Shown in pieces: positions 2,392-17,558 of a stretch of 21,655 nucleotides of DNA; within the stretch, counting starts at the first letter, position 1, and every line of letters begins with the position of its first letter. This DNA is from a virus. The DNA lies in the IMG/VR virus record IMGVR_UViG_3300018634_000001, positions 1-21,655 of that record, one strand, 5' to 3'. Made by a program: the position numbers and the translations under genes. Below the pieces are notes generated by a model. That model was not told the origin of the DNA, did not search any database, and worked only from the letters and a program-made list of their open reading frames with translations.

Positions 2392-4659
2392 TTATGCTGT
2401 TGTGCGTAATTCACTGAATAAATTATTGCGATACGTGATACTCGCCCCGTTGCCCGCTCCGCTGTTATGCAGCTTCAAAACAATAGACCCTGTGTCCAAA
2501 TATGCGCTGAATTTCGTTGGCACGCTGCCGATGGGTCTTGTTATTGCATCAACTACATACGTGTGCGAGTCGTCTGCTCTGTATATGTCAAGTCTGCCAG
2601 CTTCTTTATATCCACCGTCCGCTGAATTAATTCTATAGAGCACTTGCAGACTGTCATATGTAGCTGTCGCAACAGGTATTATAGTATCTATTGAATCATC
2701 GTAATCAATTTTTGTTGACTGCATGCGTTTTTGCAGCTCTGCTTCAATGATATCATCGGCAACATTGTCAATAGCGTCATCTAGTTCAGTTTTTTGAACA
2801 TAATTGTTTTTTATTGCTAGCTGTTCATCTTGAAGTTCTGATATAGCTTGAGCATTAGCCGATACTTTAATCCCCAACGCTTCAGCAGCTGTTTCTGTAA
2901 CATAACTTAGCTCTGAATACGTACGAGGGAACGCCATAAACAATTTTTTAACATTGAACGTTCCGCCCCCGATTTTTCCTTTGAACACAAACCAATCGGA
3001 ATTCGGATCTTCAATAAATGTTGTGTCAGTATCATCACTAGCATAAACAGCATAGCCCTTGTACGCTATAGTCGGACCTACTACAGACATTGCTCCGAAT
3101 GAATACGTTGCAGCTTGAGCTGCGTCAAAACTTGATACAATTTCCCCATTTTTATCTAAATACTCATCATGTGTTTGGTCGTTTGCATCTTCCGTGTTCG
3201 GTATTAATCGACCATTTGAATCCCAGATTGCATCATCTGCAAACGTTGTGGAAACTTGATTTGATTTGCCGATCGCCCCTTTTGCGGTTCCGCTTAATTC
3301 AAAAAACGCAAGCGCATTGTCTTGAACTTCAGCAGGAAACAATGATTTGTGCAGAATATGAAAACCGATTGTCGAATCTGTTTTTTCATGTATAAAAAAC
3401 CATTTGCCGTATGTCAAATCGGGCACAATATTACCTGGCGACACGCCAAAATAGCTAATTTTTGTTCCATCTTTTCCGTAACCGCCAGATGCATCTTGGT
3501 TTCTTAAATCAATCTCATAATTCGGTTTTTCAACGCTAGATTCGACAGCTTGAGCAAATGCAGCATCTATCATGCGCTCTGTTTGCAAATGTGTTGTAGC
3601 GTCTTGTTCGTCAATCGCGTCTTCAATGTTTTGAATTCGTTTATTGCGCGCATCAATGCCGCTTGAGCTGATAATCAGCCGATCTTCATTATTTGTTTGT
3701 ATTTTTAATTCAGAATCAAATGATATCTGATTAATTTTAGCATCTGATTTTAATCTACTATTATCAGTTAACTGCACCCATCCTGTACAGGTTTCTGCAT
3801 CTGCTGTGCTTGATGATATGATGTATATCTCAGATGTGCGTTTACTAATTGCTGTTGCTGATGCTCTGCTAAAAACATCGCAGTTTATATTTAATCTAGA
3901 ATAATCGATTGGACTGATGCGCTCGTCAGCACCGACAGTTAAACGAGCTTCAGACCCCTCACCCATGGCGGTTATAATTGCAATAAAATTATTAATTCTT
4001 ATTTGGTCGTTATTAATTCCGTCCAAATCTTGCAATTCAACATCTATATCATTTAGTGATGTATAAATGCGATAAGGTGCGTTTTCGTCAACTGTTTCCG
4101 TCAGTTCGTCAATACTGCTTGTTAGTGTTGCAACATCGCTATCTATTCGCGCGTTGATAGTATCAGCACTTGTGCTTATGGCTGTGTCGACTTCTGCTGT
4201 TGTGTATGCGCCGATATTTGACGGTGTTATAGATATGTCACCCTGCGCGTCGGGGTCCTGCCCTGCAACTTTTTTAACGTATGCAATATCAGTTGCTGTT
4301 GACGTTGCGCTAGTGCCATCATCTAAAGCAACTGTAGTAACTAATTCTTTGTCTGTGCGAACGTTATCAACAGATGTTATCTTAACTGTTTCACCCTTTG
4401 CACCCGTGCTTCCGATAAAATTCGTGGTAACATCAACCCAATCTCCGTCTCTTCGCACGTACGCATAATCTACTTTTTCATTATCAACACCAAGCGCAAC
4501 CGCCTGATTTGCTGGAAGAGAGTTGGCCCAGCTTGGATGCGTTGTTGTGTAGCTATCTAATGCAGATTTATCAGCAAAAACAGCTGTTGTGCCGTCCGCT
4601 TTTGCTGCAATCTTGAGCGCACCGCCACCGCCACCGCTTTTAATTACTGTAGAGACCAT
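2392..4659 (-). CDS. large tail fibre protein (755 aa)
   Basis: Long fibre likely to contact the host surface. The start at 4659 is chosen over an in-frame codon at 4692 because GGAGG lies seven bases before 4659 and the upstream gene stops at 4661. In order: a Gly-rich stretch (about residues 9-13), a small N-terminal domain, a collagen-like GSTGAKGE (about 84-91), and a likely coiled coil at about 150-200 (heptad-like Leu/Ile/Val spacing). Mixed beta regions follow, then a second short helical segment at about 615-650 and a beta-rich C-terminal domain of roughly 100 residues. No peptidase or chaperone motif was recognised. The order baseplate, collar fibre, acyltransferase, small protein, this fibre supports a receptor-binding role. 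The exact receptor is unknown. Confidence 0.75.
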   Translation of the reverse strand: MVSTVIKSGGGGGALKIAAKADGTTAVFADKSALDSYTTTHPSWANSLPANQAVALGVDNEKVDYAYVRRDGDWVDVTTNFIGSTGAKGETVKITSVDNVRTDKELVTTVALDDGTSATSTATDIAYVKKVAGQDPDAQGDISITPSNIGAYTTAEVDTAISTSADTINARIDSDVATLTSSIDELTETVDENAPYRIYTSLNDIDVELQDLDGINNDQIRINNFIAIITAMGEGSEARLTVGADERISPIDYSRLNINCDVFSRASATAISKRTSEIYIISSSTADAETCTGWVQLTDNSRLKSDAKINQISFDSELKIQTNNEDRLIISSSGIDARNKRIQNIEDAIDEQDATTHLQTERMIDAAFAQAVESSVEKPNYEIDLRNQDASGGYGKDGTKISYFGVSPGNIVPDLTYGKWFFIHEKTDSTIGFHILHKSLFPAEVQDNALAFFELSGTAKGAIGKSNQVSTTFADDAIWDSNGRLIPNTEDANDQTHDEYLDKNGEIVSSFDAAQAATYSFGAMSVVGPTIAYKGYAVYASDDTDTTFIEDPNSDWFVFKGKIGGGTFNVKKLFMAFPRTYSELSYVTETAAEALGIKVSANAQAISELQDEQLAIKNNYVQKTELDDAIDNVADDIIEAELQKRMQSTKIDYDDSIDTIIPVATATYDSLQVLYRINSADGGYKEAGRLDIYRADDSHTYVVDAITRPIGSVPTKFSAYLDTGSIVLKLHNSGAGNGASITYRNNLFSELRTTA

Positions 4660-4930: not shown

Positions 4931-5046
4931 TTGCACTCTCCATTTTTTTCAATTCTTGCATCATGTTCTTTAATTATAGCTCGTTGTTCTTAATATCGTT
5001 TTAACTATGTTATTATTATGTCTATTTAATAATAAATGGATTTGCT
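4931..5046. promoter_or_regulatory. divergent intergenic region between fibre cluster and acyltransferase
   Basis: The only gap between divergent genes. For the plus-strand acyltransferase, TTGTTC (4984-4989) and TGTTAT (5008-5013) at 18 bases spacing are a possible but weak sigma70 promoter; TTAACT (5001-5006) with a -10-like sequence at 5023-5030 is an alternative. On the minus strand a perfect TATAAT stands at 4978-4973, but with no good -35 box. The region is AT-rich with no clear operator. Confidence 0.35.
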
Positions 5047-6921
5047 ATGCGCCCATTATTTAGATTAGACATTAATGGAATTAGAGCCCTTGCGGTATTA
5101 GCTGTAATGCTTTTTCACTTTAATCCTAACTGGCTACCTGGTGGCTTTGCTGGGGTGGATGTGTTTTTTGTGATTTCTGGTTTTTTAATGACTCAAATTA
5201 TTTTTCGTGGCTTAGAGCAAAACAATTTCAACCTTTTTGCTTTCTATGTTGCCAGAGCTAATCGCATTATACCAGCATTGGCGTTTATGTGTATGGTCCT
5301 TCTTGTTTTAGGAGTTATTTATTTATCACCACTTGACTTATCTTCACTAGCTCGCTCGACGAGCTACACGCTTTCATTTATTTCTAATTATCAATACCTA
5401 AGAGAAGTTGGTTATTTTGCTCCCGTTGCGCAGACTCAATGGTTGCTTCATACTTGGTCTCTTTCAGTTGAGTGGCAATTCTATCTTTTTTATCCCGTCA
5501 TATTGATGTTGTTTGGGCGCATCATGCCACTTAGATGGATTAAATGGATGATTGCGGGCATGGCTTTGATTGGTTTTATCATGTATTTAGAACTATCTAA
5601 ATATTATGCGCATGCCGTTTTTTTTAGCCTTCATACCAGAATTTGGGAATTGCTCTTTGGTGGTTTGGCTTACTGCTTCCCTGTAACACTGCAATCAAGG
5701 TGGAAACGCCGTTGTAGTTGGCTCGGTATTGGCGCGATATGTATTAGTTTTTTTACATTAGACCAATATATTCTACCTGGGCCTATGGTTCTCGTTCCTA
5801 TATTGGGTGCGTATCTGGTGATTATCGCTGATACACATAATCAGTTATTAAACCACAGTATCAGTCAAACCTTGGGACGTTACTCTTACTCTTTATACTT
5901 ATGGCATTGGCCCATTGTTGTCGCAGCCCATGTGTTAGACATCCCTTATCTACCCTATTGGGGCATTCCTCTTGCGTTTGCATTAGCAGGGTTGAGCTAT
6001 CGACTCGTTGAGCAATTTCATTGGAAAAAGTTTGATCGCTGGGCTGACTTGATCAAAGTAAAGCCTGTTTTATTTGCCTTGTTGCTCATTGGGTGTAGCA
6101 AATTTATCAACAAACATAATTTTATTTTTAGTGATTATACATTAGAACAAAAAGATAAAATCTCAAAAATAGATAGTTTTTTTAAACTACCGGAATACAG
6201 ACGATTAACTAAAAATAATGAGAAATGCATTAACCGTAGAGTGTCAAATTCTTGTTCTTTTGGCGATAACCGCTGGATAGCTGTAGGCGACAGTTTTGCT
6301 GGGCAGCTCGGCAGAGCATTGCTAGATGCAAGCAAATACAAAGGGTTTTTATTTTTAGTTAAAGAACAGTGTCCCCTTGTTAGTTCAAAAATTTGGTTTA
6401 GCTCTGTTACAGATTGCATGCAATACAACGCAAATAGAATTAAATATTTATCGAACCTCAAAAACAAAAATATCATTGTCTCTGTAAATTATGCGCAATT
6501 TAATGAACCCAGGACCAATAAAAATAATGCAAATTTTGCATGGATTAGCTTTGCTGAACAAATAAAAATGTTACTAAAAAACAATAAAGTTTTTTTAGTG
6601 TACCCGATACCAAGATCATTGATAGAGCCTAAAAAAATAGCGTTATCTCAAATTTTTGAAGAATCTCCAAAAAAAACCATATTCTCTCATCGTTTGAAGC
6701 GGTACGCGTTGAACAAAAACATGAGCAAAAAACTTGATACGCTTTTACCAAAATCAAAAAATTTAATTGTGATAAAGCCAGCAGATCATCTATGCAACAA
6801 CAATCGATGCTATATCGTTAAAGATGCTCATGTTTTGTATACAGACAAAAATCATTTGTCGTATGCTGGAGCTAGCATAATCGTTAACGCTATAAATAAA
6901 GCATCTCATTATAAGTTATAA
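5047..6921 (+). CDS. OafA-type O-acyltransferase with C-terminal SGNH domain (624 aa)
   Basis: Integral inner-membrane acyltransferase, probably acetylating O-antigen or another surface glycan. Residues 1-330 form an acyltransferase-3 domain with about ten hydrophobic segments and the family hallmarks R-x6-R-A at 6-14, His24 and GGFAGVDVFFVISGF at 32-46. Residues about 390-624 form an SGNH domain with a GDSF block (Ser416 as nucleophile) and D600-K-N-H603 near the C-terminus, so both catalytic blocks look intact. Length is typical for the fused form. ATG 5047 has only a weak TGGA upstream. The gene runs opposite to the tail genes on both sides, as expected for an independently expressed lysogenic-conversion gene, as O-antigen acetylases are in Shigella phages such as Sf6. 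The 3' part appears more AT-rich than the 5' part. The acyl group and sugar substrate are not predictable. Confidence 0.92.
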   Translation: MRPLFRLDINGIRALAVLAVMLFHFNPNWLPGGFAGVDVFFVISGFLMTQIIFRGLEQNNFNLFAFYVARANRIIPALAFMCMVLLVLGVIYLSPLDLSSLARSTSYTLSFISNYQYLREVGYFAPVAQTQWLLHTWSLSVEWQFYLFYPVILMLFGRIMPLRWIKWMIAGMALIGFIMYLELSKYYAHAVFFSLHTRIWELLFGGLAYCFPVTLQSRWKRRCSWLGIGAICISFFTLDQYILPGPMVLVPILGAYLVIIADTHNQLLNHSISQTLGRYSYSLYLWHWPIVVAAHVLDIPYLPYWGIPLAFALAGLSYRLVEQFHWKKFDRWADLIKVKPVLFALLLIGCSKFINKHNFIFSDYTLEQKDKISKIDSFFKLPEYRRLTKNNEKCINRRVSNSCSFGDNRWIAVGDSFAGQLGRALLDASKYKGFLFLVKEQCPLVSSKIWFSSVTDCMQYNANRIKYLSNLKNKNIIVSVNYAQFNEPRTNKNNANFAWISFAEQIKMLLKNNKVFLVYPIPRSLIEPKKIALSQIFEESPKKTIFSHRLKRYALNKNMSKKLDTLLPKSKNLIVIKPADHLCNNNRCYIVKDAHVLYTDKNHLSYAGASIIVNAINKASHYKL

Positions 6922-9639: not shown

Positions 9640-10011
9640 TCACCATTTCAATTTTTTGTGCTTCGCTTCTAGATTATGCGCGTACATTCTGTTTAATGTA
9701 ACATAGCTGCACATATTTAAACCGCCATTGCAATATTGCCTAATCATCGTTTTTAACAAATTCTTGTCTTTAGTTTGCAAAAGCGCCTGAAACGCTTCAA
9801 GATTTGCTCGCTCCATTCTTCTAAGAGATGCGGGTGAGCACATTTTGAGTGCGCTTCTGCAGTATTGATCATGAACGCGAGCTTCTATGTATGATACTAC
9901 GCGCTGCCTGTTTGCTTGTGTGTCTATATACCCAATCGGGCTAATAAACCTAGCCGTGCTCGCGCACGCGCACGCGCTAATTATATACAGTATAAATAAT
10001 CTTTTATGCAT
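9640..10011 (-). CDS. putative lipoprotein with duplicated Cys-x6-Cys motif (123 aa)
   Basis: Unrecognised exported protein. The N-terminus (MHKR, then a hydrophobic run) ends in I-S-A-C at residues 11-14, a good lipobox, so Cys14 may be lipidated; cleavage by signal peptidase I near ACAS is the alternative. The mature part contains two related segments 43 residues apart, each with QYC-x3-L-x-MCS, then L-x-RM and NLEA (residues 49-73 and 92-116, 14 of 26 positions identical). The paired cysteines (51/58, 94/101) suggest periplasmic disulfides. The start overlaps the upstream wedge-gene stop by eight bases and the gpJ gene starts three bases after its stop, so it is a full member of the late operon. 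Candidates: superinfection exclusion, a baseplate-associated lipoprotein, or a lysis-related protein. No match to spanin or known exclusion families was recognised. Confidence 0.75.
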   Translation of the reverse strand: MHKRLFILYIISACACASTARFISPIGYIDTQANRQRVVSYIEARVHDQYCRSALKMCSPASLRRMERANLEAFQALLQTKDKNLLKTMIRQYCNGGLNMCSYVTLNRMYAHNLEAKHKKLKW

Positions 10012-12451: not shown

Positions 12452-12993
12452 AATAAACCAAACCCCTTTGCAATTTGATCTGCGACACTATCATCATTTT
12501 TTACCTCAGCAGGCTCAACTTTACCTGCATCCACTTTTTTACTTGCTGTTTGTTTCGCTGAGCTTGACAGCTGTTTGACCGTAACAACCTGAAAATCAAC
12601 CTCATTAATACGCACAAAAGAAACGCGTCCGCGTAACTCACCAACTAAGGGGCTTGTGTTTTCAGCTGATATCGACACTAGTGCCATATTTTTGTATAGA
12701 TAATGTCTTGTCACTACATCATACAGATCGCGCGCTTTCAATGCGTTTTTAATCTGCTCAAATGTTGTTGCTGCTCGAGTGCCGTATGCGCTCAATGAGT
12801 TGTCTATATTTGATATCATCCAGGAAATTTCAACAGTTTCAGGTGTTAAGACGATGTGGTCTGATATCGTTGCGCCAGATTCAACAGCAAACGCCGTAGG
12901 TTGTGCTGATTCGTCATGAAATTCAGCTGTGATTTGATCAACAGGTATTGTTGCAATTAATTCGGGATTTCCAGCGTTGAATATTGATGTCAT
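12448..12993 (-). CDS. Dit-like distal tail protein (181 aa)
   Basis: Baseplate protein that probably forms the ring between tail tube and hub. Residues 1-140 have the alternating strand pattern of Dit-like N-terminal domains, with I-S-D-H-I-V-L-T-P-E-T-V-E-I-S-W near 43-58 and a helix T-x-F-E-Q-I-K-N-A-L-K at about 75-85, followed by more strands. The last 40 residues are a Lys/Ala/Val-rich, probably flexible tail. Gene order (tape measure, Dit-like, plug, hub) supports the call. ATGA overlaps occur at both ends. Confidence 0.75.
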   Translation of the reverse strand: MTSIFNAGNPELIATIPVDQITAEFHDESAQPTAFAVESGATISDHIVLTPETVEISWMISNIDNSLSAYGTRAATTFEQIKNALKARDLYDVVTRHYLYKNMALVSISAENTSPLVGELRGRVSFVRINEVDFQVVTVKQLSSSAKQTASKKVDAGKVEPAEVKNDDSVADQIAKGFGLL

Positions 12994-14456
12994 TGTACTA
13001 ATGGGACCTGAGTTGCAAGTGTTGAAAAGTCGCTTACCGATTCTTTGGCGACCGCCATTGGGCTGCCTGCCCCGCTTATATTTTGAGTGAGCGAAAATGA
13101 ATTGTTATTGTTTGTGTTTGCGCTTGAATTTTGAATTACTTGTGCGGGAACGGGTGCAGATTGAGTTGATGATAATGTTTTGCTTTGTGCCCCCCCATCT
13201 TCACTGCCAATATACTCATCCAAGGCGTCAAGTCCTTTTCCAATCATGTCGCCAACAAATGAAAATACCGACATGATTTTTTTAAATCCATCTTTTATTG
13301 AGTCTATGTAGACAGAAAAAAAGTCCTTGACTGAATCAATGATTGAGTTAAATGCTTTTTTAACTACTCTCGAAATGTTTGGAAATCTTTCAGTGAATGC
13401 ATCAACAAATTTTCCAATTATGCTATCACCGCCCCTAAAGTAGGCCCAGATGTCCTCCATGACCAGCACTAATCCCGCAATGCCAATTGCGGCAGCAACA
13501 AAGGGCGCTGCAATGAGCGCAGCCTGCGCTGCCATCGACGCGAGACCCCCAGCGACAAGGACTGCTATCGCTTTTGTTGCGTCTAGATCGCCCGAAAATT
13601 TATCCAAATCGGGCAAAAACGATTTTATAAAATCCCAAGCTTTGCTTATTGCGTCACTAAAAAGTTCAAAACCAAGTCGCGCACCATCAATGACTTGCGT
13701 GATGCCCAAATCAATAAATTTCCGATTAACATCAATGAAATTCTGCCATTTTTTTGCCATCTCGGTCAGAACAGGGAAAAATTTACTAACAGCTGTATTG
13801 ACAACTCCAGTGACTGTAAATCTCAAATTAAACAGTGCGTCATCTAAATCGGCAGCCGATTTTGCTGTTTTTTCGGATAGAACGCCGCCTAGCTCTCTAG
13901 CTCTATCTGTTAATTCCTTTACACCGTCGGAGCCTGATTGTAGCAGTCTAATCGTTGATTTAGAGAGCCCCAACTTGTTACCAAAATCTTGCGCCTTTTT
14001 GTTGCTCATCGTGCCGAATTTTTCAGCTAAATCACCAAACAACTCTGTTGCTGTTTTTATATCACCATTGGATTTACGTGCGCTAATTCCTAGCTGAAGA
14101 AGCGCTTCGCTGTATGCGCCTGGGTTTGACGTGTCGACAATTTTAGAGAGCGTCTCTAGATCTTTGTTCATGTCATCTACAGAGCCGCCCGATAATACCG
14201 AAGCATAACCGAGCTCTTGCAACTTCTCAAAAGTGACGCCAATGCTTGCTGAAAATTTGCCCTGAGCGTCCACAGAATTAGCAAGAACTAGCGCGTACCC
14301 TTGGGCCGCAGTTGCTGCAACATTTAAAGCTTTACCAAGCTGGGCAGCTTTTTTACCCATGTCGACAAGATTTTTTTTAAAGTCAGCCGCTTCTTTTTTT
14401 GAAGAAGGATCAACTTCAAGCCCAAGTATCGTCACAAACTCATCGACTATGCTCAT
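12990..14456 (-). CDS. tail tape measure protein (488 aa)
   Basis: Sets tail length and is ejected with DNA. The N-terminal third is mainly helical with many Lys/Ala/Leu. The region around residues 290-335 is strongly hydrophobic and Ala/Gly-rich, as expected for the membrane-inserting part of tape measures. It is followed by M-E-D-I-W-A-Y-F-R-G-G-D-S at about 332-345, a recurrent signature of such proteins. The tail end is Ser/Asn/Gln-rich. At about 0.15 nm per helical residue, 488 residues imply a tail shorter than about 75 nm, small for a myovirus. It starts by ATGA overlap with the chaperone frameshift extension, the universal position. Confidence 0.88.
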   Translation of the reverse strand: MSIVDEFVTILGLEVDPSSKKEAADFKKNLVDMGKKAAQLGKALNVAATAAQGYALVLANSVDAQGKFSASIGVTFEKLQELGYASVLSGGSVDDMNKDLETLSKIVDTSNPGAYSEALLQLGISARKSNGDIKTATELFGDLAEKFGTMSNKKAQDFGNKLGLSKSTIRLLQSGSDGVKELTDRARELGGVLSEKTAKSAADLDDALFNLRFTVTGVVNTAVSKFFPVLTEMAKKWQNFIDVNRKFIDLGITQVIDGARLGFELFSDAISKAWDFIKSFLPDLDKFSGDLDATKAIAVLVAGGLASMAAQAALIAAPFVAAAIGIAGLVLVMEDIWAYFRGGDSIIGKFVDAFTERFPNISRVVKKAFNSIIDSVKDFFSVYIDSIKDGFKKIMSVFSFVGDMIGKGLDALDEYIGSEDGGAQSKTLSSTQSAPVPAQVIQNSSANTNNNNSFSLTQNISGAGSPMAVAKESVSDFSTLATQVPLVQ

Positions 14457-14734
14457 CGTTTGTTTCTCTCTGCCTCAGTTTGCGCCATTTTGTGTTGCTC
14501 CCACTCTAACCAACTGTTTAGCTCTATCATGCTCATCATGTCGCGCATATCGTACCAATCGAGCTTTCCGCTATTTAATTCGATGTACGTGCAGTATCCT
14601 GCTGTGACAACCGAGCTAACCATGTACTCAACAGTCCAATCTTCGGGAATTTGAACAGTTAATCCCCTGTTTTGCTGGGGAAGCTCTTTCCCAAGCCCAA
14701 AAAATAACCTCCGCACACTTCTTTTATAAGCCAA
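14453..14734 (-). CDS. tail assembly chaperone, -1 frame extension (gpT-like)
   Basis: Reading frame overlapping the end of the 137-residue chaperone gene by 76 bases in the -1 frame. Its apparent first codon at 14734 is TTG with no ribosome binding site, so independent initiation is unlikely. Translation most probably enters from the upstream gene at the slippery heptamer 14692-14686, adding 77 residues to residue 129 for a fusion of about 206 residues. The part beyond the slip contains a P-E-D-W-T-V-E-Y motif and a Trp-rich end with YDMRDMMSMIELNSWLEWEQ. This is the G-T fusion of lambda-like and other tailed phages, which binds the tape measure during tail assembly; the tape-measure gene starts at its stop. 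Confidence 0.85.
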   Translation of the reverse strand: MAYKRSVRRLFFGLGKELPQQNRGLTVQIPEDWTVEYMVSSVVTAGYCTYIELNSGKLDWYDMRDMMSMIELNSWLEWEQHKMAQTEAERNKR

Positions 14735-15072
14735 ACAAGAAAAGGAAAAAGATTTTCAGGCTGGTCATTAAAATGCACATCAAGTACATCACTTTCAATA
14801 CGCATGTCGCTCCCATCTTTATACACTTTTGACATGTCTAATAGTTCAATAGCAGAGTCATATATCATATCAGTGTCTACTGAGTTTAGTGCTGAAACAA
14901 GCATCGGAATGGCTTTGTTATTATCGCTAATTTCACTCAATTCGCTAGTATTTATACTTGTGAGTAGCCCGCCCAGTTGTGTAGCTAGCCGCGCTGCAAC
15001 ACGGCCCGATTTTAAAATAGGAGGGTTTTCTAGTATGATGTACGTTGTGCTTGCTATTGTGTGTTTTTTCAT
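14659..15072 (-). CDS. tail assembly chaperone (gpG-like) (137 aa)
   Basis: Zero-frame product of the chaperone pair, by position and by the frameshift signal at its 3' end. It lies between the tube gene and the tape measure gene, where such chaperones are always found. It is a mixed helical protein with an N-terminal beta strand region (TIASTTYIILENPP) and helices further on. The last nine codons lie after the slippery site, so most ribosomes would make this 137-residue form and a minority the longer fusion. The start is ATG 15072, 14 bases after the tube stop, with a weak GAGAA. Sequence similarity alone did not identify it; the assignment rests on context and frameshift. Confidence 0.8.
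   Translation of the reverse strand: MKKHTIASTTYIILENPPILKSGRVAARLATQLGGLLTSINTSELSEISDNNKAIPMLVSALNSVDTDMIYDSAIELLDMSKVYKDGSDMRIESDVLDVHFNDQPENLFPFLVWLIKEVCGGYFLGLGKSFPSKTGD
14663..14704 (-). other. programmed -1 ribosomal frameshift signal (lambda-type slippery heptamer)
   Basis: On the minus strand the upstream frame reads TTG GGA AAG, giving the heptamer G GGA AAG at 14692-14686, identical to the phage lambda G-T site and in the correct frame. A second slippery heptamer, T TTT TTG, sits a few codons earlier at 14704-14698, also in frame. A possible stimulatory hairpin follows: TCCCC (14681-14677) pairs with GGGGA (14667-14663) around a nine-base loop, about four bases after the heptamer. 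Slippage leads into the -1 frame that stays open to 14453. Confidence 0.85.
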
Positions 15073-15085
15073 ATTATTCTCATTA

Positions 15086-15496
15086 TTATATAGTATCTAT
15101 GCGCTCACAGCCAAAAACAACTGCTTGTGTACCATGCTGTGGTCCACCTGTTGTGATATCACCCTGGTTTTGAATTGAGCATCCAAACGCGTTAACAACA
15201 ACCCCTGATGGATCGTTGATTAATATGTCAATTGGCAAGCTAACGCCCTCTTGCTGTGCAATTTGAAGCGCTCTTATTAATTTTAGAGACGGACTCACGC
15301 TTTTGTATGTTAGTGTAATCGTCCCTGTACGTCCATTTGCTATAGACGTTGTTCCGCGTGTTGCGCCCACGCCTGGCGGTGTTATTGATGACGTGTCTTG
15401 AGATTGACTAACTACAACAGAATCGCCCTCTGTTAGCTCTTGTTGCGCTACTCCATCGATTAGAACGCTAATACGTTTTTGATTATATGCTGCCAT
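15086..15496 (-). CDS. tail tube protein, DUF3277-like (136 aa)
   Basis: Tube protein that polymerises inside the sheath. It has the expected size, a beta-rich sequence, and the central T-x-G-T-I-T-L-T-Y-K-S-x-S-P-S-L-K-L-I-R-A-L pattern (about residues 58-80) typical of small myoviral tube proteins in which a Ser-Pro-x-x-x-x-L follows a strand. A Gly-rich N-terminal region leads into it. ATG 15496 follows AGGGGG. The position directly after the sheath gene and before the chaperones is characteristic. Confidence 0.82.
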   Translation of the reverse strand: MAAYNQKRISVLIDGVAQQELTEGDSVVVSQSQDTSSITPPGVGATRGTTSIANGRTGTITLTYKSVSPSLKLIRALQIAQQEGVSLPIDILINDPSGVVVNAFGCSIQNQGDITTGGPQHGTQAVVFGCERIDTI

Positions 15497-15510: not shown

Positions 15511-17016
15511 TTAGTTATAGACGGATAGAGTTATTGGTAGTTTGTGAATTGCGCCAGCTAAGTACACGCCGATTTGCATTGGCGGAGCTAAACGCTCAGC
15601 TCTATCTGATGCTGATGCAGTTGCTGTACTAAGCATTGACACGCTGTATGCGGGCTCTAGAGCTATTCCGCTGTCACTCTCAAAATCTTCTACTGCTCTA
15701 TCATTTAGTGAGCCATTTCGTTTAAATCGCTCACAAACTCTAGTAGCTGCAGCAATCATTTTACCCTCGCCCATTGCACCATCTGAGTAGAAAATTTTAT
15801 TGTTTTTCAAGAACACGTTATATTCTGCTGTTTGGAGCTGCTCGACGAGATTATCTAGATTAATTCTATCATCTATATAGTATGATTCAGATATCATAAT
15901 GCCGTCCCTGAACGTTCTAGACGAATTACCCACCGCTGTAAATAAATTATATCGTTTATTTTGTAGTACTAGTAAATCGCTAGTCTCAACACCCTGCGTC
16001 GGAATACCGACCAAATTTTTAAATTTTGCGGTTTTAGTCGTATTTTCGCCCGAGTAGTTAACGCTGAGCATTTGCGCAATAATCGCGGCATCTGGATAGT
16101 ACTCAGAGTCCTGCATCCAAATTGCACAAGTTTTTTCATATGCGAGCGGTGTAAGTAGCGCGCCCACATCGTTAACCGACGCGCTGTTTTTGGCCTGCGG
16201 ATCGTTAGATGTTGTTAGATGAATCGCTTTGTCGATAGTTTCAATATATGCTGCCGCTGTAAGCACATCCGCGCTATCTCTATATGATTTTTCTAGTATC
16301 CAAGCGTATATGTATTCTTTTGTGCATCCAGCTGCCTGCTGTATTAAGTTTATCTCGCCATCTATGCCTGTAGGTGTATATCCTGCCTGTGGTATGCCTG
16401 TACCTTCTTGCCCGTTCAGTATGCCGAATCCAGATATGTCAGAGCCAGAACCGACTGAGCTTAGCACGCTAACGCTCGAACCGTCACCGCTCAATGCTGA
16501 TGTAAATGTGAATTTGGTGCCGTCATGCGTGACGCTAGCCGCGCCACCTGCTGATGTAATTGCTGATTGAATAACGAGACAAACAGCTGCAAAATCGCCA
16601 GCGTCGCTAAAATCGCAACCAGTGACGTCGTACGTAATACTATCAATAGCAACAGAGAAAGAACCATCTTCAATAGATGTGAATGACTCTAGTGCGCCAC
16701 CTTGACCGCACGTCATATAGCCAGCCTGAGCCACGCTAAAAGCCTGCGCTATGGCAATTTTTTCAGGATGCTCGCTTTGTGAGAAAAAATCTCTTGCAAA
16801 CTTGTATGCTTCTGAATCGCTACCCCACTCATCCATCACATCAGCCGCACTTGTGTAGAATTTAACGCGACCAGGACCAATAGGCAGCTGACCAGTTGAC
16901 GTCACTAGGCACGCTATCGTTAAATCAGTTGCTCGCTCAGTTTGTGACATAGAAACGGTCACGGGCACATCAGTAGATCGAGGCAAGCTTTTATCACCGC
17001 AGTTAATCACATCCAT
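15511..17016 (-). CDS. tail sheath protein, DUF3383 family (501 aa)
   Basis: Contractile sheath subunit. The N-terminus contains S-Q-T-E-R-A-T-D-L-T-I-A-C-L and Y-T-S-A-A-D-V-x-x-E-W, then A-x-D-F-F-S-Q-S-E-H-P-E-K-I-A-I-A, the recognisable start of DUF3383 sheaths. A central beta insertion spans about residues 110-215. The C-terminal half carries YYIDDRINLDNLVEQLQTAE and the closing strand region that forms the conserved sheath core. Two starts are possible: ATG 17022 overlaps the upstream stop, while ATG 17016 has AAGGAG six bases before it and was chosen. It confirms a contractile tail. Confidence 0.9.
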   Translation of the reverse strand: MDVINCGDKSLPRSTDVPVTVSMSQTERATDLTIACLVTSTGQLPIGPGRVKFYTSAADVMDEWGSDSEAYKFARDFFSQSEHPEKIAIAQAFSVAQAGYMTCGQGGALESFTSIEDGSFSVAIDSITYDVTGCDFSDAGDFAAVCLVIQSAITSAGGAASVTHDGTKFTFTSALSGDGSSVSVLSSVGSGSDISGFGILNGQEGTGIPQAGYTPTGIDGEINLIQQAAGCTKEYIYAWILEKSYRDSADVLTAAAYIETIDKAIHLTTSNDPQAKNSASVNDVGALLTPLAYEKTCAIWMQDSEYYPDAAIIAQMLSVNYSGENTTKTAKFKNLVGIPTQGVETSDLLVLQNKRYNLFTAVGNSSRTFRDGIMISESYYIDDRINLDNLVEQLQTAEYNVFLKNNKIFYSDGAMGEGKMIAAATRVCERFKRNGSLNDRAVEDFESDSGIALEPAYSVSMLSTATASASDRAERLAPPMQIGVYLAGAIHKLPITLSVYN

Positions 17017-17018
17017 TA

Positions 17019-17558
17019 TCATCTCCTTGTTACTAGTGTGTCACTGATAACATCATCGTTTTCTGCATCTATCACTACTAAATGCGCATTCTCTATATAA
17101 TCAGCATTATCAATGCTGGAATTTATGATTGCATGAATTATAAAATCAAAATTCCAACGCGCTCTATTCGTTCCGAGCATTGATGATGTTATGTTCTGAG
17201 GTTGTATCTGTATTTGACCGAATCCGCACACACGCCAAAGGTCTAGATACCGTTTTTGTGAGTGCAACGTACTCGCTATATATCGTATATCGCTTTCGCA
17301 CGAGTGACCGAGAGTTCCGTCACCCACGCATTCAATGCCCACTGTCATTGTATGACGTTGCTCGATTGTCTCGACATCATTATCATCAATGTGTGAAACC
17401 GGATTGCCAGCTACTTCTATTCTTTTTATACCGAACGTCAAATACGGATGGTTTGGTACTTCAGCATTATTGTTGCTAGCGATTGCTGTTCGATTCGGTA
17501 TGACGCTATACAGCCAGTCGTACAGAGTATTGTGCAATTCAATGAGTGTTGTTGACAT
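17019..17558 (-). CDS. tail terminator/neck protein, LIC_12616-like (179 aa)
   Basis: Completes the tail top and joins it to the neck. The N-terminal helix (L-H-N-T-L-Y-D-W-L-Y-S-V-I-P-N) is followed by N-N-N-A-E-V-P-N-H-P-Y-L-T-F, the typical opening of these terminators (helix, then Pro-x-x-Pro-Tyr-Leu-Thr). Strands follow, ending in a conserved R-A-R-W-N-F-D-F. The gene overlaps the previous one by 20 bases and the sheath gene follows at once. The ribosome binding site is weak, suggesting coupling. Family name is from motif memory, position strongly supportive. Confidence 0.75.
   Translation of the reverse strand: MSTTLIELHNTLYDWLYSVIPNRTAIASNNNAEVPNHPYLTFGIKRIEVAGNPVSHIDDNDVETIEQRHTMTVGIECVGDGTLGHSCESDIRYIASTLHSQKRYLDLWRVCGFGQIQIQPQNITSSMLGTNRARWNFDFIIHAIINSSIDNADYIENAHLVVIDAENDDVISDTLVTRR

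Follow-up and report, generated by a model that had tools for sequence, protein, structure and literature searches.

Tail-chaperone frameshifting is already textbook biology, and two well-described systems provide the closest points of reference for the locus considered here. In phage lambda, the short and long chaperones gpG and gpGT, present in a ratio of 30:1, bind the tape measure and recruit the tail-tube protein (PMC5009743). In phage P2, the heptamer TTTTTTG is the site of the E/E+E' frameshift, and no hairpin is predicted downstream of this site or of those in the relatives KS5, KS14, and KL3 (PMC3091744). The present locus lies in the IMG/VR virus record IMGVR_UViG_3300018634_000001, of which positions 1-21,655 (the window hereafter, this being the whole stretch of DNA analysed) were examined, with the genes concerned on the minus strand. 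The end of a tail chaperone gene and the overlapping -1 frame together very probably form, judging from the sequence, a cassette for programmed -1 ribosomal frameshifting in a phage with a contractile tail, from which a long tail chaperone would be made.

The zero-frame product of this locus is a tail assembly chaperone of 137 residues (14659-15072, minus strand), an analogue of lambda gpG and P2 gpE identified by its gene position, by a profile of relatives, and by a match to the Pfam family PF21822 (Phage_TAC_15) at 32.7 bits (cut-off 22). Near the end of the gene the zero-frame codons read GGT TAT TTT TTG GGC TTG GGA AAG AGC TTC, which places in phase both slippery heptamers proposed in an earlier note on this DNA, the lambda-type G GGA AAG (14686-14692), identical to the lambda site, and T TTT TTG (14698-14704). 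A third heptamer of the X XXY YYZ form, T TTG GGC (14695-14701), overlaps these codons and was not mentioned in the earlier note; it is probably weak, as GGN A-site codons are on average poor shifters in Escherichia coli (PMC4066793). From 14755 onward no stop interrupts the -1 frame until the TGA at 14455-14453; this codon overlaps the ATG of the tape measure gene at 14456. The +1 frame is closed 29 nucleotides beyond the chaperone stop. A shift at either heptamer gives a fusion of 129 + 77 = 206 residues, the last 77 of which (14453-14685, minus strand) are the analogue of lambda gpT and P2 E', as indicated by profile comparison, hhalign, and a six-frame search. Every coordinate in the earlier note, including the end of the -1 frame at 14453, agreed with the sequence and the open reading frames (ORFs), as did its estimate of about 206 residues for the fusion.

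Regarding chance expectation, the window's other minus-strand genes have 40 in-phase heptamers among 5855 codon pairs (0.7%); in these genes neither TTTTTTG nor GGGAAAG is in phase anywhere, and both of these are found inside 33 codons at the chaperone overlap. At least one heptamer arises in the overlap in 16% of codon shuffles of the window chaperone gene alone, and the heptamer match of the window, taken alone, is only suggestive. The heptamer evidence becomes compelling because in-phase heptamers are conserved in relatives, with 23 of 24 loci (the window included) bearing one against about 4.9 expected from the sum of per-locus codon-shuffle values.

These relatives are distant. The window chaperone has no relative among phages detectable by plain tblastn, and the sheath and capsid proteins lead to many phages at about 25% identity. 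Chaperone regions were compared in 23 relatives, not all independent since five are near-identical Vibrio phages; the loci of Pantoea AAM22 and Vibrio 1.278.O were excluded as they did not reach the chaperone gene. A -1 extension reaching 141-207 nucleotides past the chaperone stop is present in every one of the 23, and in 22 of them the overlap contains an in-phase X XXY YYZ heptamer. The exception is pOW20-A, in whose sequence a possible T_TTT tetramer can be read at the corresponding position. The heptamers of the relatives are TTTTTTG, TTTTTTC, TTTTTTT, CCCTTTT, and GGGAAAT, nearly always one in phase and at the same place. The comparison across related phages that the earlier note called for thus supports an in-phase site, but the heptamer sequence varies, so that the absence of both window heptamers from a related phage would have to be read with care as a refutation.

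Both halves of the fusion are homologous to those of the relatives. Against a profile of 22 relatives' -1 products the window -1 peptide scores 26.7 bits, with 4.5 the highest among 200 shuffles (hhalign P 5e-8), and, similarly, a profile of their zero-frame chaperones matches the window chaperone at 26.8 bits (best of 200 shuffles 5.6). In a six-frame search of all sequences gathered, the extension profile matched the window only in the -1 frame, which is the strongest evidence that this is a real coding frame, and the same profile found the extension of pOW20-A, which is not part of it, at 51 bits. When the fusions are aligned, all junctions fall in the same columns; T TTT TTG of the window falls there too, with G GGA AAG four codons downstream, and the choice of site introduces no bias into this alignment because the fusion sequence is the same for either. 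T TTT TTG is, on this alignment with 22 relatives, the positional homologue of the family's conserved slip site, and is probably the ancestral site, perhaps kept as a second contributor.

Closer relatives were sought and not found with the chaperone in phage records and IMG/VR, with the sheath in IMG/VR and genome contigs, or with the capsid in IMG/VR. A search with the baseplate J protein returned only IMGVR_UViG_3300018519_000003 (11,948 bases), whose protein is 100% identical to that of the window; this record may derive from the window's own phage or one almost identical to it, and its sequence begins on the downstream side of the frameshift site.

As to which site dominates, G GGA AAG is somewhat the likelier main site, on account of its stronger motif, a GGAGG element at a permitted distance, and a hairpin at short spacing. 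In E. coli it ranks in the top three motifs for efficiency when stimulators are present (PMC4066793; see also PMC5009743), and U_UUU_UUG is outside the high-efficiency bacterial class of the same study (PMC4066793). Elements resembling a Shine-Dalgarno (SD) sequence are stimulatory 6-17 nucleotides upstream of the slip motif (PMC4066793), and the GGAGG at 14708-14712 (minus strand), a candidate stimulator of G GGA AAG, lies 16-17 nucleotides from that heptamer, inside this range, and only 4-5 nucleotides from T TTT TTG, outside it. A 5-bp hairpin (14663-14681, minus strand; TCCCC 14681-14677 with GGGGA 14667-14663) follows G GGA AAG after 4 nucleotides.

Several observations weigh against the reading as a whole. 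The GGAGG spacing barely falls within the permitted range and exceeds the 10-14 nucleotides favoured in the relatives. In these an SD-like motif stands 10-14 nucleotides before the slip site in 10 of 18 non-redundant loci, whereas in-frame places drawn at random from those loci would give 1.3 (nominal P about 1e-7), an enrichment that is suggestive, being uncorrected for conserved amino acids near the site or for shared ancestry. The hairpin described in the earlier note is present about four bases after the heptamer, but its stability is not significant: the region is no more stably folded than its shuffles (z -0.7 to +0.2, and -1.5 in another run), and of the three stretches folded, two favour a competing hairpin, GGGGAUU/AAUUCCC. 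No stable downstream stem-loop was found in the shuffle-tested stem-loop folds; P2 needs no such structure (PMC3091744). A downstream RNA structure was also considered as a necessary element of the cassette, and was rejected as unsupported.

It is possible, if rather less probable than a leading role for G GGA AAG, that only T TTT TTG works, as it does in P2 and in the XM1-like Vibrio phages, and that the downstream G GGA AAG is a chance heptamer. T TTT TTG occupies the family junction columns, the P2 site has the same sequence and, like those of KS5, KS14, and KL3, no predicted downstream hairpin (PMC3091744), and an AAG heptamer is used by none of the sampled relatives. However, G GGA AAG is in phase, is the far stronger motif in E. 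coli, and has no other in-phase copy in the window's genes, and GGAGG is too close to T TTT TTG, at 4-5 nucleotides, to stimulate a -1 shift there.

In the proposed mechanism, most ribosomes would stop after the 137-residue chaperone and a minority would move into the -1 frame at G GGA AAG or T TTT TTG, giving the 206-residue chaperone with its 77-residue extension. As in lambda and P2, both forms, kept at a set ratio, would then load the tape measure and bring in tail-tube subunits, a role suggested for the window phage by homology and gene order and by analogy with lambda.

The two sites are joined by four codons (14686-14697, minus strand) that read GGC TTG GGA AAG in frame 0 and GGG CTT GGG AAA in frame -1. 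Since this bridge is GLGK in both frames, the protein is identical for a slip at either site after A-site decoding, and the rates at the two sites would add up to the total frameshift rate; a slip at T TTT TTG before A-site decoding would instead put F in place of L. Elsewhere in the window's minus-strand genes, frame 0 and frame -1 agree in amino acid at 5.5% of codons, and a four-codon run identical in both frames occurs at 0 of 5807 places. Two of the four matches (GGA/GGG and AAG/AAA) follow near-automatically from the second heptamer, and the remaining coincidence, spotted post hoc, is modest, at about 0.3% for the two free codons. A scan of IMG/VR for the tandem pattern TTTTTTGGNNTNGGGAAAG, which other spacings or bridge codons would escape, gave 32 contigs, none with a homologue of the chaperone or the extension, and these matches look like chance occurrences in unrelated contexts.

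That the two sites and the GLGK bridge form a selected redundant cassette, in which additive slips set the chaperone ratio or keep it steady in hosts whose tRNAs differ, is doubtful. The dual-site design was not found in the 23 relatives examined, in none of which is there a separate tandem pair, their multiple heptamers being overlapping ones, and the remark in the earlier note that tandem slip sites are less usual is borne out. A literature search, with coverage mostly outside subscription journals, returned nothing on point about phage tail genes with tandem or redundant slip sites. Three overlapping in-phase heptamers were observed at the junction in BUCTT20 (6712-6724, TTTGGGAAATTTT) and SEN34 (6496-6508, GGGAAATTTTTTG; positions of the stretches examined), with products that differ by at most one residue.

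The identity of the products also bears on experiment. Trypsin cleaves exactly at the junction, after K, between EVCGGYFLGLGK and ELPQQNR, so that no tryptic peptide spans it, and lambda gpG and gpGT are absent from mature virions (PMC5009743). Mass spectrometry of tail preparations, put forward in the earlier note as a check, would therefore fail as proposed; nor, apart from the F-for-L case, can mass spectrometry separate the slip sites, since their products are identical; reporter mutants can.

Of the explanations that dispense with ribosomal slippage, translation of the -1 ORF from a start of its own is very improbable. The earlier note held that this frame has no usable start; a TTG at 14734 and an ATG at 14623 do exist in it, but neither is preceded by a recognisable SD sequence. 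Several relatives are annotated with a separate small ORF at the -1 extension, as such translation would have it, yet the relatives keep an in-phase slip site at a single position and the homology of the extension reaches beyond any common start codon. Slippage of RNA polymerase on the run of six T, which would likewise make the -1 product, is similarly hard to credit: a T-rich run is kept in most relatives, but six T is short for transcript slippage, and several relatives lack the run there, IFTN9 having GGGAAAT and Magia CCCTTTT. The homopolymer run at the junction could point to an assembly or sequencing error, or an inactivating indel, in what is really one ORF, but this is next to impossible and was rejected, the same broken-frame architecture being common to all 23 relatives from independent projects, with each zero frame ending at its own stop near the same place.

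Regarding the setting of the cassette, the gene order of sheath, tube, chaperone, tape measure, and baseplate proteins is that of a contractile tail. The sheath gene (15511-17022, minus strand) encodes a DUF3383 contractile tail sheath (PF11863, 202 bits; PHROG 205, tail sheath). It adjoins the gene for the tail tube protein (15086-15496, minus strand; PHROG 280, virion structural protein, E 3.9e-18), and on the other side of the chaperone lies the tape measure gene (12990-14456, minus strand; PHROG 8125, tape measure, E 5.6e-46). The DUF3383 sheath and the TAC_15 chaperone share one operon, as expected of this lineage, and the chaperone occupies the gap between tube and tape measure that lambda G/T and P2 E/E' occupy. 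Membership of the TAC family, an in-phase heptamer, and a conserved -1 extension further place the locus with genes of the lambda G/GT kind. The assignment of the two frames to a tail chaperone, made in the earlier note from the letters alone, is thus upheld by the Pfam family, by position, and by the homology of the -1 peptide to the relatives' extensions.

Two further genes of the window were observed. An AT3 acyltransferase fused to an SGNH domain (5047-6921, plus strand; Pfam 104 and 106 bits) stands among tail-fibre-side genes, on the strand opposite to the tail operon, and its product is a candidate modifier of host surface polysaccharide during lysogeny. A protein of 123 residues (9640-10011, minus strand), encoded between the sheath-initiator and baseplate J genes, has a probable signal peptide and paired cysteines and no Pfam match, and is possibly the product of a cargo gene.

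The main value of the present analysis lies in correct annotation. In nearly all relatives examined, XM1 included, the annotation either omits the -1 half or lists it as a hypothetical gene of its own, and the XM1 structure paper makes no mention of it; the Magia record does annotate the frameshift product. Small 'hypothetical' ORFs that correspond to the -1 extension are XM1 gene 2_9 (4177-4317), CP-T1 gp55 (14384-14506), and one in PSTCR3 (4950-5075), and the stretch is unannotated in most other relatives. The tandem site, with the same product whichever heptamer is used, also offers a natural test of slip-site additivity, and bears on how the slip position of a lineage might pass from a heptamer of the P2 type to one of the lambda type.

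Compared with known systems, the locus shares with lambda gpG/gpGT the identical heptamer GGGAAAG, the direction of the shift, the gene order, and a minor long form with an extension, but the lambda tail is non-contractile and the lambda heptamer of the window lies downstream of the usual slip position of its lineage. In architecture it resembles P2 gpE/gpE+E': the tail is contractile, the small chaperone gene that lies between tube and tape measure has its -1 shift close to the end, the heptamer T TTT TTG is the same, and no convincing RNA structure follows; it differs in its second, separate G GGA AAG four codons later and in belonging to the TAC_15/DUF3383-sheath lineage. The DUF3383-sheath phages, including Vibrio XM1, Salmonella SEN34, Acinetobacter BUCTT20, Burkholderia Magia, and Pseudanabaena Pam3, have a homologous chaperone with a -1 extension, the same gene order, and a slip site at the same alignment position. 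Where they have multiple heptamers, these overlap codon by codon (e.g., CCCTTTT with TTTTTTG), whereas the extra site of the window is separate and gives the same product. Thus, the cassette of the window is a real and ordinary tail-chaperone frameshift of the lambda/P2 type with an unusual tandem site.
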